From Tistrella mobilis (lineage in GTDB: Bacteria > Pseudomonadota > Alphaproteobacteria > Tistrellales > Tistrellaceae): a stretch of DNA of 64,000 bases. The position numbers and the translations under genes were made by a program. Under the pieces are notes generated by a model. The model was given only the letters and a program-made list of their open reading frames with translations, did not search any database and was not told the origin of the DNA. The stretch spans positions 1,343,501 to 1,407,500 of the forward strand of contig NZ_CP121017.1 of the NCBI RefSeq assembly GCF_041468085.1, in the 5' to 3' direction. Shown here piece by piece: positions 7,344 to 64,000 of this stretch; within the stretch, counting starts at the first letter, position 1, and each line of letters starts with the position of its first letter.

Positions 7344-7369
7344 CGGCCGAGGTGAGCTGCTGAACGGAA

Positions 7370-7406
7370 AAGGGCCGGCCCCTCCGCTCGGGAAGGGCCG
7401 GCCCTT
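7370..7406. terminator. Bidirectional terminator between AbrB-family gene and greA
   Basis: A perfect 11-bp stem (AAGGGCCGGCC with GGCCGGCCCTT) and 15-base loop lies between two convergent genes, with an A-run before and TT after, so it can serve both strands. Confidence 0.8.
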
Positions 7407-7431
7407 CACGTCTTCGACGGAGCGTCCGGCG

Positions 7432-7905
7432 TCAGCTGAAGCTCACCGCCATGATTTCGTAGGAGCGGCGGCCCTTGGGGGTCGCGACCTCGACGGTCTC
7501 GCCCACCGCCTTGTTGATCAGCGCGCGCGCCATCGGCGACGTCACCGAGATGCGGCCGATCTTCAGGTCGGCCTCGTCGACGCCGACGATCTTGTAGCTG
7601 GTCTCTTCCTCGGTCTCTTCGTCGACGACGGTGACCGTCGCGCCGAACTTGACCCGATCGCCCGACAGCTTGGTGGGGTCGATCACCTCCGAGCGGGACA
7701 GCTTGTCCTCCAGCTCGGCGATGCGGCCCTCAATGAAGCTCTGGCGTTCGCGCGCCGCGTGGTACTCGGCGTTCTCCGACAGATCGCCATGCGCCCGGGC
7801 TTCGGCGATCGCGTTGATCACCTCGGGACGGGCCACCGTCTTCAGATGCTTGAGTTCGGCGGTCAGTCGGTCGAAGCCTTCCAACGTCATGGGAACTTTT
7901 TCCAT
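7432..7905 (-). CDS. greA: Transcription elongation factor GreA
   Basis: The 157-residue protein has the GreA layout: an N-terminal antiparallel coiled coil (to about 75, with [15 protein letters not shown], whose acidic tip enters the RNA polymerase channel) and a C-terminal FKBP-like domain ([19 protein letters not shown]). It stimulates cleavage of backtracked transcripts. The ATG at 7905 gives the usual family length; the frame is open further upstream but that extension lacks similarity. It lies downstream of carB in the same direction, but a strong hairpin between them suggests separate transcription. Confidence 0.97.
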
Positions 7906-8084
7906 GGGTATGACGCTTTCCACGTTGGTCGTCGAACGGTCAGGCGATCGTCGGAGGGAATGCCGTTCCGCGGTTGACAGGAATTCATGCCGCAGCAGTT
8001 CTGCGCGCGGCGGCCGGGCTTTCCGGCCGCCGAACGTCGGTTGTGCACGAGATCGCTGTGCACCTGCAGCACGACAACAGGAAC

Positions 8085-8118
8085 ACATGCGGGGCCGATT
8101 TTCATCGGCCCCGCATGT
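8085..8118 (-). terminator. Terminator downstream of carB
   Basis: A 15-bp perfect stem (ACATGCGGGGCCGAT and its complement) with a TTTC loop lies 26 bases past the carB stop. There is no long U-tract on the leftward transcript, so it may act as a terminator or as a 3' stabilising hairpin. Confidence 0.7.
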
Positions 8119-8143
8119 CGATCAGCCGTTTTCTGCGGCCTTC

Positions 8144-11381
<3,238 letters not shown>

Positions 11382-59114: not shown

Positions 59115-60092
59115 ATGAAGACGCGCATCACGGAACTGCTGGGCATCCGGCATCCGATCATCCAGGGCGGCATGCATTATGTGGGCTTCGCCGAGCTTGC
59201 GGCCGCGGTGTCGAATGCCGGCGCGCTCGGCATCATCACCGGCCTGACCCAGAAGACACCCGAGCTTCTGGCCCGCGAGATCGCGCGGGCCCGCGAGATG
59301 ACCGACCAGCCCTTCGGCGTGAACCTGACCTTCCTGCCCACTTTCCAGGCGCCGCCCTATCCGGAATACATCCAGGCGATCGTCGAAGGGGGCGTGAAGA
59401 TCGTCGAGACCGCCGGCCGCAGCCCCGAGGCCTATATGCCGGCGCTGAAGGCGGCGGGGATCAAGGTGATCCATAAATGCACCTCGGTCCGCCATGCGCT
59501 GAAGGCCGAGAAGATCGGCTGCGATGCGGTCAGCGTCGACGGTTTCGAATGCGGCGGGCATCCGGGTGAGGACGACATCCCCAACATGATCCTGCTGCCG
59601 CGCGCAGCCGAAGAACTGACCATCCCCTTCGTCGCCTCGGGCGGCATGGCCGATGCGCGCAGCCTGGTGGCGGCGCTGGCGCTGGGGGCCGATGGCATGA
59701 ACATGGGCACCCGCTTCATCGCGACCAAAGAGGCGCCGGTCCACGAGAACGTCAAGCAGGCGATCGTGGCCGCCACCGAACTCGACACCCGCCTGGTCAT
59801 GCGCCCGCTGCGCAATACCGAGCGCGTGCTGGCCAATGCCGCGGTCGACCGGCTGGTCGAGATCGAGCGCGAAAAGGGTGCCGACCTCAAGATCGACGAC
59901 ATCCACGATCTGGTGGCCGGCGTCTATCCGCGGGTGATGATCGAGGGTGAGATGGATGCCGGCGCCTGGAGCTGCGGCATGGTCGCCGGTCTGATCCACG
60001 ACGTGCCGAGCTGTCAGGAACTGATCGACCGGATCATGTCCGAGGCGGAAGGCCTGATCAATCAGCGCCTTGCGGGCATGATCGCCGGCTGA
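59115..60092 (+). CDS. Nitronate monooxygenase (NMO) family FMN protein
   Basis: The 325-residue TIM-barrel flavoprotein oxidises alkyl nitronates such as propionate-3-nitronate. It has the N-terminal GIRHPIIQGGMHYVG, the catalytic His149 in ECGGHPGEDD, and the FMN-phosphate loop VASGGMADARSLVAALALGADGM. The NMO family also includes 2-nitropropane dioxygenase-like enzymes; the physiological substrate here is not known. It begins 55 bases after the LtaS-like gene and precedes an HxlR regulator. Confidence 0.92.
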   Translation: MKTRITELLGIRHPIIQGGMHYVGFAELAAAVSNAGALGIITGLTQKTPELLAREIARAREMTDQPFGVNLTFLPTFQAPPYPEYIQAIVEGGVKIVETAGRSPEAYMPALKAAGIKVIHKCTSVRHALKAEKIGCDAVSVDGFECGGHPGEDDIPNMILLPRAAEELTIPFVASGGMADARSLVAALALGADGMNMGTRFIATKEAPVHENVKQAIVAATELDTRLVMRPLRNTERVLANAAVDRLVEIEREKGADLKIDDIHDLVAGVYPRVMIEGEMDAGAWSCGMVAGLIHDVPSCQELIDRIMSEAEGLINQRLAGMIAG

Positions 60093-60118
60093 CGGCCGGG
60101 CGGGGAGGGGAAAGCACG

Positions 60119-60613
60119 GTGGCGCGGGAACCGCTCGATCGGATGAATTGCAGCATCGCCCATGCGCTCGACGTGGTGGGATCGATCGACGGTTTCCTGA
60201 TCCTGCGCAACGCCTTCAACGGCATGCGCACCTTCGACGCCTTCCAGGACCATCTGGGCCTGTCGTCGAGCGTGCTTTCCACCCGCCTGAAGCAGATGAC
60301 CGAGGCCGGCATCCTGCGCAAGACCCCGTCGCCCACCGATGGCCGGTCGTATGAATATCGCCTGACCGAACAGGGGCTCGGCCTCTATCCGGTGATGGTG
60401 GCGCTGCTCCATTGGGGCGAGCGCTGGGCCCCGGACCCCGGCGGCGAGCGCATGTTCCTGACCGAAACCGCCACCGGCCGCCCGGTGGCGCAGATGGCGG
60501 TCCGCTCCGAAGACGGCCGCCCGCTCCGCCCGCAGGAAATCACCGCCGTGGCGGGGCCGGGGGCGGACGACAAGATCCGGCAGCTTGTGGGGTGGCGGCA
60601 CCGGCAAGGCTGA
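60119..60613 (+). CDS. HxlR-family transcriptional regulator
   Basis: The 164-residue protein has the HxlR winged helix: MNCSIAHALDVVGSIDGFLILRNAF, then RTFDAFQDHLGLSSSVLSTRLKQMTEAGIL and a wing with RSYEYRLTEQG. The single Cys near the N-terminus is typical of the family, some of which sense aldehydes or quinones. The GTG at 60119 starts just 26 bases after the nitronate monooxygenase gene, so it may regulate that operon. Confidence 0.88.
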   Translation: MAREPLDRMNCSIAHALDVVGSIDGFLILRNAFNGMRTFDAFQDHLGLSSSVLSTRLKQMTEAGILRKTPSPTDGRSYEYRLTEQGLGLYPVMVALLHWGERWAPDPGGERMFLTETATGRPVAQMAVRSEDGRPLRPQEITAVAGPGADDKIRQLVGWRHRQG

Positions 60614-60647
60614 CACCGCCACCCGGATGAGGGCGACAGGAAGCCGA

Positions 60648-62987
60648 TCAGGCCTCGATGGCCCCCCAGTTCTTGTAGACGGCCCGCGTGCCGAGATGTT
60701 TCCAGGTGACGCCGCCGTCGCCGGCCGTGCCGGAAGTATGCGTCGGCGGCGTGGTGCCGGTGGTGCCGTCTGCGGTGGCCTCGTAGGCCTCGGTGCCGTT
60801 ATAGCGCAAGTCACCGATCGCGACCGTTTCGCCCGTCGTCCAGGCGAACTGCACCATGTGACCGCCGGTCACCACCACCCAGCCGATGTTGCCGCCAGCC
60901 GTCGGGTTGAGTCTGAAGCGGATGTCGCCCCGCTTCACTTCGGTGTTCCAGAGCCACGGAGAGGCGGCGAGGTCGACATGCCGCAGTTCATGCCACATGC
61001 CCAGCTGCATGCCGTTGATGAAGCGCGGCGTGCCTGACCAGTTGGCGTCGGAGTCGAGCATCGGGACGAGGCGCCGGGTCTCAGGCGTTTCAAGATTGGA
61101 AGCTCCCTCGTAATGCCGAACCCGCATATGGGGCTGCCCGTCGATGACGGTCAGTTCGCCGTTGCGCAGGGTGAGCGGTGCGGTGGTGTTGTGCCCGCCC
61201 ATGTCGATCAGCAGGCCGTCGCGTCCATAGGGGGCTGAAACCGTCGCCTGATGCAGGGCCTCCGTCGGACGAACGCCGATCGACCAGCTGCCGTAGATAT
61301 TCCATTCATTCACCGGTGCTGCCGGGTCTTTGGGGTCGAAACCCGACGGATCGGCGATCGAAAAGGGAAGCCTTTCGAGGAAGTAGCGGGTGCTCGAGGC
61401 AACACCTGCCAAGGCGACCCGGTTATCACGGAGATTGGCGTCTTCTTCCAGATACATCAGCCAGACACCCGGAATGGCCGTCCAGGTGATGGTGCCGTCG
61501 GTCACCTGTCCGCCGGCGAGCAGTGGCCAGTTGGGTTCGCTGGCCGCTGTCTGGCCACTCTGAGTGGCGCTGTACATCAGGCCCGTCGCCTTGCCGAGTG
61601 GCGGGATGACCATGGCCTGTTTTCCGGCCTCGATGGCGAACGTCCGCCCTGCGCTCCAGCGTGCGATATTGCCGCCCACACCTTCCCCCCGCACCGAAAT
61701 CTTCGATTCCTGGAGCCGGGCACTTACCAACAGGCCGCAGCGCAGCGCCTCACCGCCGGTGTCGCGCGAATTGGTCGAGGACAGATAGACGCTCAGATCG
61801 ATCTCGCCGTTATAGAGCGTGGCGGTCGCGTTGCCGTCCTGGCCGGGGTTGCGCCGGACCTCGATACCGACGGACTCGAGCGACGTGTCCCAGGGCATTT
61901 CGCAATGGACATGCCTGATGACGCGGCAGCCGTGGAAGGATCCGTTGGCCTCTCTGGTTTCAAAGACGACGCCACGGACGGTGTTGGCGGTGACGCAGTC
62001 TTCGAAGACGGTGTATTCGCTGTACAGAAATTCCTTCGGGGCGCCGAAATCCGGCGGCAGGCCGAAATCGGGAACCGCGTTCAGAAAGTGGATGGAGATA
62101 TCCGCAGGATGGGCGTAGTTCGACACGCGGATGCGCTGGTTGACGGTGAACATGGCGCCGGTGACACAGATGCCGGTGTGGCCACCGGTCACGCCGGCCT
62201 TTTTGATGACCGAGAAGTCGCGAATGCCCCAGCCGCGCGGGCAATCCCGATTTTTGAGCGTGTCCAGGGTTTCGAGCATCAGGCAGTACTGATGGCCGCC
62301 GGTGTGGACCAGCATGGTGACGCTGGTACCGCTGCCTTCGAGAACCGTCTTGTTGATACGGTGTCCGCCCGCGAGCGGGATCTCACCCTGGGGCAGGATC
62401 ACATGGCGAGAGGCGGCGAGCGCCCTGTTCAGGGCCGCCGAATTGACGACGCCCTCGGAACTGGTCAGGCTGCGCGGGCGGCAGCCATACCAGGCGGCAT
62501 AGACCGGCCCTTCGAAGCTTCGCCGCCAGCGGCCGGGACTGGTGCCGGCGACCGCGTCGGGTTTGACCAGGATACCGTCGTCATCGGCCGCGGTCGAAGC
62601 GGGATCGTAGACGAACCAGCCGCTACCACCATCACCGGGCAGATCGTGGCCGTGGACATAGACCGCCCCGTTCAGCACCGGCCAGGCCCTCAACCCAGCC
62701 AGATGAGCGGGATATTCGACGCCGCCGTCGACCGGGTCGGCCGACCAGATCAGGGTGCCGTCGGTGCGATCGAGCCGGGCGGCTGCCGGGGCATCATCCA
62801 GCCAGATCTCGGGGAAACGGCCATCCGCGTCGGACAGGATCGGATGGCCATGGGTGGCGGTATGGGCGGCATCGACCCAGGCCGTCTTGGGCGTGGTGGT
62901 GCCGGCATCGAACAGATGAAGTCGGGTGGACGGGTAGGGCGTGCCGTTGCCATCGACCGGGACGGGGATCGGCAGGACGAACTTCAT
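60648..62987 (-). CDS. Phage tailspike-like beta-helix protein, orphan
   Basis: The 779-residue protein starts like a phage tailspike head-binding segment (PVPVDGNGTPYPSTRLHLF, then ILSDADGRFPEIWLDDA). A pectate-lyase-like right-handed beta-helix follows (about 165-420, with an NSAALNRALAASRHVILPQG start), then an SGNH-free C-terminal part. Two copies of a Y-x5-GQT/GTT...DGxxTW module (about 470-505 and 735-770) resemble small carbohydrate-binding units of tail fibres. No other phage gene is nearby. It may be a tailspike captured from a phage or a cell-surface depolymerase. Confidence 0.7.
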   Translation of the reverse strand: MKFVLPIPVPVDGNGTPYPSTRLHLFDAGTTTPKTAWVDAAHTATHGHPILSDADGRFPEIWLDDAPAAARLDRTDGTLIWSADPVDGGVEYPAHLAGLRAWPVLNGAVYVHGHDLPGDGGSGWFVYDPASTAADDDGILVKPDAVAGTSPGRWRRSFEGPVYAAWYGCRPRSLTSSEGVVNSAALNRALAASRHVILPQGEIPLAGGHRINKTVLEGSGTSVTMLVHTGGHQYCLMLETLDTLKNRDCPRGWGIRDFSVIKKAGVTGGHTGICVTGAMFTVNQRIRVSNYAHPADISIHFLNAVPDFGLPPDFGAPKEFLYSEYTVFEDCVTANTVRGVVFETREANGSFHGCRVIRHVHCEMPWDTSLESVGIEVRRNPGQDGNATATLYNGEIDLSVYLSSTNSRDTGGEALRCGLLVSARLQESKISVRGEGVGGNIARWSAGRTFAIEAGKQAMVIPPLGKATGLMYSATQSGQTAASEPNWPLLAGGQVTDGTITWTAIPGVWLMYLEEDANLRDNRVALAGVASSTRYFLERLPFSIADPSGFDPKDPAAPVNEWNIYGSWSIGVRPTEALHQATVSAPYGRDGLLIDMGGHNTTAPLTLRNGELTVIDGQPHMRVRHYEGASNLETPETRRLVPMLDSDANWSGTPRFINGMQLGMWHELRHVDLAASPWLWNTEVKRGDIRFRLNPTAGGNIGWVVVTGGHMVQFAWTTGETVAIGDLRYNGTEAYEATADGTTGTTPPTHTSGTAGDGGVTWKHLGTRAVYKNWGAIEA

Positions 62988-63121
62988 GGGGCAAACTCCC
63001 GCTGCAAATGCTGTCCGGAGGCCTCCGTTCCAGGCTGGCGCGGAATACCTTCGGATGCGGGAGTCAGGCTAAGTACCGACAGGTTTCGTGTAAAAATCTG
63101 TTATGTTGCAACATGTTGCAT
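62988..63121. promoter_or_regulatory. AT-rich control region upstream of the tailspike-like gene
   Basis: The region is AT-rich against its surroundings and contains two ATGTTGCA copies (63103-63110 and 63113-63120) that overlap the palindrome TGTTGCAACA (63104-63113). These could be operator sites for the leftward tailspike-like gene, which they precede by about 116 bases. Confidence 0.4.
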
Positions 63122-63787
63122 CTAAAGATCAGCCTGTGCCTTATCCGGAGTGGCTGCCGTCTCCCGCCACCGCTTCAGCCCCGGCGTGTCGATGTCGAAG
63201 AGGTCCAGGACCCGGCCGAGGGTGTGGTCGATCATCGCCTGCAGGCTGTCGGGCTTTGCATAGAAGGCCGGCACCGGCGGGGCGATGATGGCGCCGGCTT
63301 CGGCGGCCTGGGTCATGGCGCGCAGATGGCCCAGATGCAGCGGGGTTTCGCGGACCATCAGCACCAGCCGGCGGCGTTCCTTCAGCACCACATCGGCGGC
63401 CCGGGTCAGAAGGCCGGTGGTGTTGCCATAGGCGATCTCCGACAGGCTGCGGATCGAGCAGGGGGCGACCACCATGCCCAGGGTGCGGAACGAACCGCTG
63501 GAGATCGCGGCGCCGACATCGCGCGGATCATGGACCGTATGGGCCAGCGCCTTCACCTCGGCCACGCGCAGATCGGTTTCGTAGGCAACCGTCATTTCGG
63601 CCGCCTTGCTCATCACCAGATGGCTCTCGATCCCGGCCGATTTCAGCAACTGCAACAGACGGATACCGTAGACGACGCCCGAGGCGCCCGAGATGCCGAC
63701 GATCAGACGGCGGGGCCCATGCCGGGCCATGCCATTCATTGCCGTCATCGAACCGTCATCAGGGGGGTTGAAGCCGTCCGTCGTCAT
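63122..63787 (-). CDS. ubiX: UbiX-family flavin prenyltransferase
   Basis: The protein (222 residues from the chosen start) makes prenylated FMN, the cofactor of UbiD decarboxylases in ubiquinone synthesis. It has the family opening RRLIVGISGASGVVYGIRLL, the FMN/DMAP-site SSGSFRTLGMVVAPCSIRSLSEIA and the late RETPLHLGHLRAMTQAAEAGA. The start is uncertain: 63787, 63748 and 63730 are in-frame ATGs and none has a clear ribosome site; 63730 would give the typical length near 200. A divergent DUF465 gene begins about 105 bases away. Confidence 0.9.
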   Translation of the reverse strand: MTTDGFNPPDDGSMTAMNGMARHGPRRLIVGISGASGVVYGIRLLQLLKSAGIESHLVMSKAAEMTVAYETDLRVAEVKALAHTVHDPRDVGAAISSGSFRTLGMVVAPCSIRSLSEIAYGNTTGLLTRAADVVLKERRRLVLMVRETPLHLGHLRAMTQAAEAGAIIAPPVPAFYAKPDSLQAMIDHTLGRVLDLFDIDTPGLKRWRETAATPDKAQADL

Positions 63788-63893
63788 ATCCACGTAACTT
63801 TCTGAGGGGTCGCCCTGTGAAAGGGGCCGGGCCGCGCCACGGGAGGTGGCGGTCTGTCCCGGTCCAAGATGGTATTGCGCAACGGAGGTGTCC

Positions 63894-64000
63894 ATGAGCG
63901 TTCAGGCGCGTGTCGAAGCCTTGAAGCAGAAGCATGCCGCTCTCGACGAGGCGTTGCACAGTGAATACATCCGCCCGAAGCCGGACGATCAGGCGATCGC
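63894..64000 (+). CDS. DUF465 (YdcH-like) protein, partial
   Basis: The first 35 codons of a small gene are present, reading MSVQARVEALKQKHAALDEA before the edge cuts it. The EALKQKHAALD pattern and the RPKPDDQAI turn match DUF465, short coiled-coil hairpin proteins of unknown function that are common in alphaproteobacteria. ACGGAGGTG precedes the ATG. The remainder lies off the right edge. Confidence 0.8.
   Translation, partial: MSVQARVEALKQKHAALDEALHSEYIRPKPDDQAI

Follow-up and report, generated by a model that had tools for sequence, protein, structure and literature searches.

A solitary, constrained tailspike-like gene in Tistrella is preceded by a palindrome that recurs upstream of other solitary neck-domain genes

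Why would a bacterium carry an intact tailspike-like gene among genes of metabolism? The question arises in a 64,000-nucleotide stretch of DNA (the window) from a genome that we call G000, which we compared with the genomes of a sister species (G001) and of T. mobilis (G002), all three of the genus Tistrella. The original prediction placed a 2.3-kb gene at positions 60648-62987, standing alone between an HxlR regulator and ubiX, and we found the gene there as an intact open reading frame of 779 amino acids on the minus strand (60648..62987), with a syntenic orthologue in G001. The frame begins with an ATG, and there is no in-frame start codon further upstream. A Shine–Dalgarno-like GGGAG, read from the sequence, lies 8 bases upstream of this ATG (62996..63000, minus strand); a scan of positions 60000-64000 found no sigma-70 promoters. 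The neighbours encode a nitronate monooxygenase-like protein, HxlR, UbiX, a DUF465 protein, two AMP-binding enzymes, an MFS protein and a helicase, with PurE, PurK and COQ9 further away. The gene is also alone in the phage sense, as had been proposed: surveying 45-64 kb of the window and the following 20 kb by eye, with a crude gene caller, we saw no phage gene.

The N terminus of the protein is that of a phage tailspike, as originally predicted. Amino acids 1-92 (62712..62987, minus strand) form a P22-type tailspike head-binding domain. In phmmer searches of the PDB, amino acids 12-90 matched 7eeq, 'Tailspike head-binding domain' (1.7e-8), and amino acids 3-86 matched 9vyg, 'Tail spike protein' (about 8e-8); a nine-sequence profile of the N terminus with its phage relatives matched the same two structures at 3.4e-23 and 1.6e-22, respectively. 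A secretion or adhesin domain in this position would have spoken against a phage origin, but the N-terminal relatives that we found are phage or prophage proteins, and those whose surroundings were read are phage or prophage genes (the IMG/VR loci L017-L023, MW202691 and a prophage of genome G043). A crude hydropathy test found no hydrophobic stretch or signal peptide at the N terminus.

The head-binding domain is followed by a tailspike neck domain, GWFVYD...GRWRR (amino acids 93-170; 62478..62711, minus strand). A profile built from nine such domains (A2) matched the solved tailspikes 5w5p, 8iq9 and 6c72 as well as a host protein, 6tgf, the last with an E-value of 0.001; the solved relatives of the neck domain are mostly tailspikes. 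From this neck domain we infer that the body of the spike is a beta-helix. The presumed parallel beta-helix is assigned by position only to amino acids 171-640 (61068..62477, minus strand), and amino acids 151-638 had no convincing sequence match in the PDB (best E-value 0.46). A Pfam search of the whole protein returned nothing at E≤10. AlphaFold2 gave models of very low confidence, with a mean pLDDT of 31 for the full-length protein from a single sequence and of 43 for the N-terminal part from seven sequences. We found no relatives of the body in the phages, viral contigs or genome contigs searched, the last in a first scan from which records near the window's genome may be missing. Only one full-length homologue of the spike is known, and it lies at the same locus.

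Two short modules of the form Y...DGxxTW lie at amino acids 472-502 and 735-762. They had been described as two copies of Y-x5-GTT..DGxxTW; the second fits this motif, but the first ends in DGTITW without the GTT. A stretch within the body that contains the first module (amino acids 456-504; 61476..61622, minus strand) matched phrog_20658 at 2.1e-5. The C-terminal module (amino acids 715-770; 60678..60845, minus strand) resembles that of 7eea, the tailspike of a short-tailed cyanophage (5.6e-12 by phmmer against the PDB), and matched phrog_19864 at 2e-9.

Comparison of G000 with G001 showed purifying selection on the spike, which these two Tistrella species have at the same locus. In Nei–Gojobori counts for this single species pair, the gene carries 56 synonymous changes and 43 nonsynonymous ones, where neutrality predicts 166 nonsynonymous changes (dN/dS 0.25). 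The head-binding domain is constrained to a similar degree, with 4 nonsynonymous changes against 17 expected (dN/dS 0.23); the C-terminal part is less tightly constrained (dN/dS 0.50). The synonymous divergence of 0.10 equals that of the adjacent HxlR and ubiX genes, and three genes further off range from 0.15 to 0.27. We saw none of the signs of a decayed relic (lost constraint, a broken frame or phage remnants nearby) at the spike.

The orthologue in G001 lies at the same locus in an alignment over 10 kb, and the two spikes are 94% identical without gaps. Because of this syntenic orthologue and the E-values of the domains, we consider the locus more than a chance resemblance. The T. mobilis genome G002 has no full-length match to the spike. 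Since the spike occupies the interval between HxlR and ubiX in two species and a RES–Xre pair occupies it in T. mobilis, this interval is a variable slot (60599..63158, with breakpoints located by blastn). Pfam identified the two T. mobilis genes as RES (6.2e-27) and Xre_MbcA_ParS_C (6.2e-9); the match of the RES gene to the NCBIfam RES-toxin model was below its cut-off. This toxin–antitoxin-like pair lies at 7352-8334 of the T. mobilis locus L045. The 3′ end of ubiX differs between G000 and T. mobilis. The two ends of the slot share no direct or inverted repeat of more than 8 bp, and on this ground integrase-type insertion of the spike was rejected.

The spike is one of several such genes in the genus. 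Profile A2 matched 6 proteins in G000, 7 in G001 and 4 in G002, 17 in total. One of these, G002:C1:43097, belongs to a podophage prophage of T. mobilis as its spike, and we set it aside. The remaining 16 solitary genes fall into eight kinds of locus, named here by protein length or neighbour: the spike itself (779), 1039, 510, 547/585, 548, 752, 533 and a locus next to a kinase gene that Pfam identifies as PrkA. Surveying by eye with a crude gene caller, we noticed no phage genes over about 20 kb at loci L025, L026, L028, L029, L030, L094, L127, L128 and L129, over about 7-9 kb at L095 and L096, or over the first 6 kb of the contig of L130; for the 510-aa loci of G001 and G002 the survey covered 3.4-kb pieces. 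Orthologues within the 510, 547 and 548 groups have dN/dS values of 0.11-0.52. The 1039-, 510-, 547-, 548-, 533- and 752-aa proteins have the neck domain of the spike and their genes its upstream palindrome (weak for the 752-aa gene), but the proteins start at or near the neck, and among those read only the spike and its orthologue have the P22-type head-binding domain.

Two of these loci vary between species. The site at tRNA-Thr(cgt) is empty in G001 but occupied in G000 by the 1039-aa gene with its palindrome and in T. mobilis by a podophage of about 36 kb. At the PrkA locus, the spike proteins of G000 and G001 are different, with 25% identity over about 350 amino acids. These two loci indicate that the solitary genes lie partly at sites used by phages and that the content of such sites varies with the species. 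The T. mobilis podophage prophage spans loci L051-L052 (contig C1, about 40-76 kb) and has a partial tRNA copy at its far end, and the prkA-adjacent genes lie at L128 9858-11759 and L130 95-1489, in surrounding DNA that is 90% identical. In G001, the 752-aa gene lies between two copies of tRNA-Thr(ggt) (L028 8095-10741), with a weak palindrome outside the second copy. Outside the three genomes, a solitary neck-domain protein of genome G096 (L032 9202-11376) has a twin-arginine-like N-terminal stretch by eye (SRRLF...) and is possibly exported.

The palindrome is the second feature that the solitary genes have in common. Upstream of the spike it reads AGATGCAACATGTTGCAACA (63104..63123, minus strand), lies 116 bp from the ATG, shares two bases with the ubiX stop codon and is identical over its 20 bases in G001. 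We noticed it when comparing upstream regions, in which TGCAACATGTTGCAACA stands before the spike gene and also before the 510-aa gene, with looser forms upstream of others. A 20-bp palindrome, TGTTGC-N8-GCAACA, lies upstream of 13 of the 16 solitary genes at distances of 78-134 bp, measured from gene starts of our own choice. We drew a degenerate pattern from six groups picked by inspection and searched four genomes with it. Zero-mismatch sites numbered 3 in G000, 4 in G001, 3 in G002 and 0 in G003, a genome of another family, and all ten sites in Tistrella precede neck-domain genes. Three of the ten fall in the 547 group, which had no part in the design of the pattern and whose genes were found through the site; profile A2 also lists these genes, although its rows by then included two of them. 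When up to one mismatch is allowed, the pattern shows no clear excess over its reversed control (19 versus 17 in G000, 14 versus 17 in G001, 14 versus 9 in G002 and 9 versus 17 in G003), and with two mismatches its count in the window, 2 against 1.24 expected, is unremarkable.

We also scored each group with a matrix made from the other groups, taking the best site within 400 bp upstream, against 410 upstream regions of other called genes at 24 Tistrella loci; because of overlap and orthology among them, these controls are not all independent. The sites of 13 of the 16 solitary genes scored above all 410 controls. The 752-aa gene has its site 362 bp away, at a score reached by 2 of the 410 controls, and the G000 gene at the PrkA locus has no palindrome in the 400 bp scanned. 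Its G001 counterpart has a site that scores above all controls (17.6), but we did not count it, as it lies 5 bp from the assumed ATG. No palindrome was found upstream of the T. mobilis prophage spike (357 of 410 controls score as high) or of the solitary genes of G041 and G096 (53 and 72 of 410, respectively). In the 548 group, the site is conserved amid diverged upstream DNA, and in G000 both of its arms have changed together, to TGCTGC/GCAGCA from TGTTGC/GCAACA. This paired change is a single event, of the kind expected if the site were bound by a dimer.

The palindrome is not confined to spikes. A one-mismatch site lies upstream of an operon of tandem NHLP-leader RiPP precursors in all three species (G000 C1:471223, G001 C42:16057 and G002 C3:397042). 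Five precursors were called in G000, and all four that were tested scored at or above the cut-off of TIGR03793. That the set extends beyond spikes speaks for a host regulator. The operon (L165 7290-9168 on C1 of G000; also L166 and L167) adjoins a cyclic-peptide-type ABC exporter and an FhuB-like permease, and L165 also contains CRISPR-like repeats at 10433-10859, whose translation reads VSIHTPAKGV several times. Another one-mismatch palindrome of G000 (L097 9767-9786) precedes one member of a tandem chemotaxis-receptor gene cluster.

In public genome contigs we found the palindrome in 12 stretches, one of them in T. mobilis; the other 11, from other genera, had no recognisable tailspike gene within about 1.2 kb by eye. 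By the same inspection, none of 12 viral contigs with the motif had it beside a recognisable tailspike gene. An integron or pdif-like cassette was rejected, as each locus has one strong site and no flanking pair. The late-promoter site of the P2 Ogr type is TGT-N12-ACA, a spacing that differs from that of the palindrome, and this candidate was rejected as well. We did not find TGTTGCAACA as an operator in the open-access literature.

The P22-type domain raises the possibility that the spike is mounted on a particle. P22-like podophage tailspikes (the cyanophage structures 7eeq and 7eea, MW202691 and loci L017-L023) have the head-binding domain of the spike, and 7eea also has one C-terminal module in common with it. 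These tailspike genes adjoin tail nozzle and accessory genes, however, and the spike gene does not. Solved phage tailspikes (8iq9, the K2-2 TSP; 5w5p; 6c72) have a neck before the body, as does the spike, with a match limited to the neck. The nozzle that accompanies head-binding-domain spikes in L017 and G043 is phrog_578; MW202691 is annotated with a stabilization protein and a P22 tail accessory factor. Among 142 genomes, phrog_578 was found in three (G011, G014 and G043). It was not found in G000, G001 or G002 by the same search that finds the nozzle of G043. We used phrog_578 because PF11134 is not a valid test, as Pfam misses the nozzles of G043 and L017 too.

One of the roles originally suggested, that of serving a tailocin or phage particle whose genes lie elsewhere in the genome, would account for a head-binding domain that is intact and constrained, and tail genes do exist elsewhere in G000: a contractile-tail prophage (loci L055-L056, C4, about 3.02-3.05 Mb) has a sheath, baseplate J and a lambda-type portal (PF05136). 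Its fibre has an N terminus unlike that of the spike, however, and mainly because phrog_578 was not found in the Tistrella genomes we reject a resident particle, which we rate the least probable of the readings considered here. The portal families PF04860 and PF12236 are also absent from G000, which says little, as the portal of its own prophage is PF05136. Near the start of contig C3, T. mobilis has a contractile-tail cluster with sheath and baseplate J (L057 1204-13600), which is possibly tailocin-like, as we saw no head genes by eye in the first 20 kb of the contig.

The original prediction also offered capture of a phage gene, and this is well supported: the frame is intact and under purifying selection, the domains are of phage type, no phage genes were seen around it, no phrog_578 nozzle was found in its genome, and its palindrome recurs at most other solitary tailspike-like genes of the genus. 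We think it probable that the host captured a phage tailspike gene and brought it under its own control. Alternatively, a P22-like prophage could once have integrated at the 3′ end of ubiX and decayed, leaving the gene as its last relic, with no present function. The P22-like podophage domain at the N terminus is what such a relic would have, the different ends of ubiX in G000 and T. mobilis mean that something changed there, and tRNA-Thr(cgt) is empty, holds a solitary spike or holds a whole podophage depending on the species. A relic is nevertheless hard to reconcile with the deficit of nonsynonymous changes in a frame intact in two species, with the slot ends, which have no repeat longer than 8 bp, with the lack of any other phage gene seen nearby and with a control-like site that is common to genes at other loci, and we regard it as unlikely.

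Slightly less likely again is a mobile, moron-like single-gene cargo that moves between phages and host hot spots, with the palindrome as a cassette recombination or promoter element instead of a host operator. Exchange of this kind would fit the RES–Xre pair in the T. mobilis slot, the dissimilar spike proteins inside closely similar DNA at the PrkA locus and the position of the 1039-aa gene next to tRNA-Thr. The palindrome itself does not behave like such an element: it occurs as a single strong site per locus without a flanking partner, none of the motif-bearing viral contigs has it beside a recognisable tailspike gene (within the same distance, by eye), and the same site precedes RiPP genes that are conserved in place in three species. 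Capture by the host followed by host control is thus the reading that we carry forward, and the data suggest that the host has adopted phage spikes to serve purposes of its own.

The precedent that we found in print for a host-encoded tailspike-like enzyme is WceF of Pantoea stewartii (PDB 6tgf), which is reported to be a glycosidase that acts on the host's own exopolysaccharide, stewartan, and to be prone to aggregation without its P22-like head domain (PMC7949094). WceF resembles the spike in being encoded by a host gene outside a prophage and in having a head domain like that of the P22 tailspike and a neck domain; a beta-helix follows the neck in WceF, and in the spike that of the body is inferred. 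The two differ in that WceF has a Tat signal, whereas our crude hydropathy test saw none in the spike, and in that WceF is encoded in an exopolysaccharide cluster, whereas the spike gene stands alone among metabolic genes. The palindrome that the spike has in common with other solitary genes also sets it apart from WceF. Searching the open-access literature for solitary, orphan or stand-alone tailspike genes as a topic, we found no paper, which is weak evidence of novelty.

With WceF as a working model, the spike would be a glycan-binding or glycan-cutting trimer. It may fold as a trimer whose head and neck domains help assembly, and the aggregation reported for WceF without its head domain would explain why the head-binding domain has been kept here. 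The body may bind or cut polysaccharide, on surfaces or in the extracellular space, that comes from the cell itself or from neighbours, and the polysaccharide depolymerase role originally suggested would be plausible. Because no signal peptide was seen, we assume that the spike would be released by lysis or by an unrecognised export route. The palindrome would be the putative operator at which a single dimeric host regulator acts, with the NHLP RiPP-precursor operon also under its control. A more speculative extension, which we consider improbable, though less so than a particle encoded elsewhere, is that the head-binding domain has been kept because it has a use: during assembly of a P22-like phage in the cell, the host spike would replace the phage's own on the virions and so direct the progeny to a wrong receptor, with the dispersed spike and RiPP genes forming a regulon for competition or surface remodelling.

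If capture and host control are correct, a genus with several solitary spikes at fixed and variable loci, most of which have an operator-like site in common with peptide-natural-product genes, would have a regulated tool set made from phage receptor-binding proteins. This makes the function of solitary tailspike-like genes in bacterial genomes testable, and the palindrome offers a direct handle on the regulator. The constraint on the head-binding domain raises the further question of why a host keeps a domain for docking to a virion.
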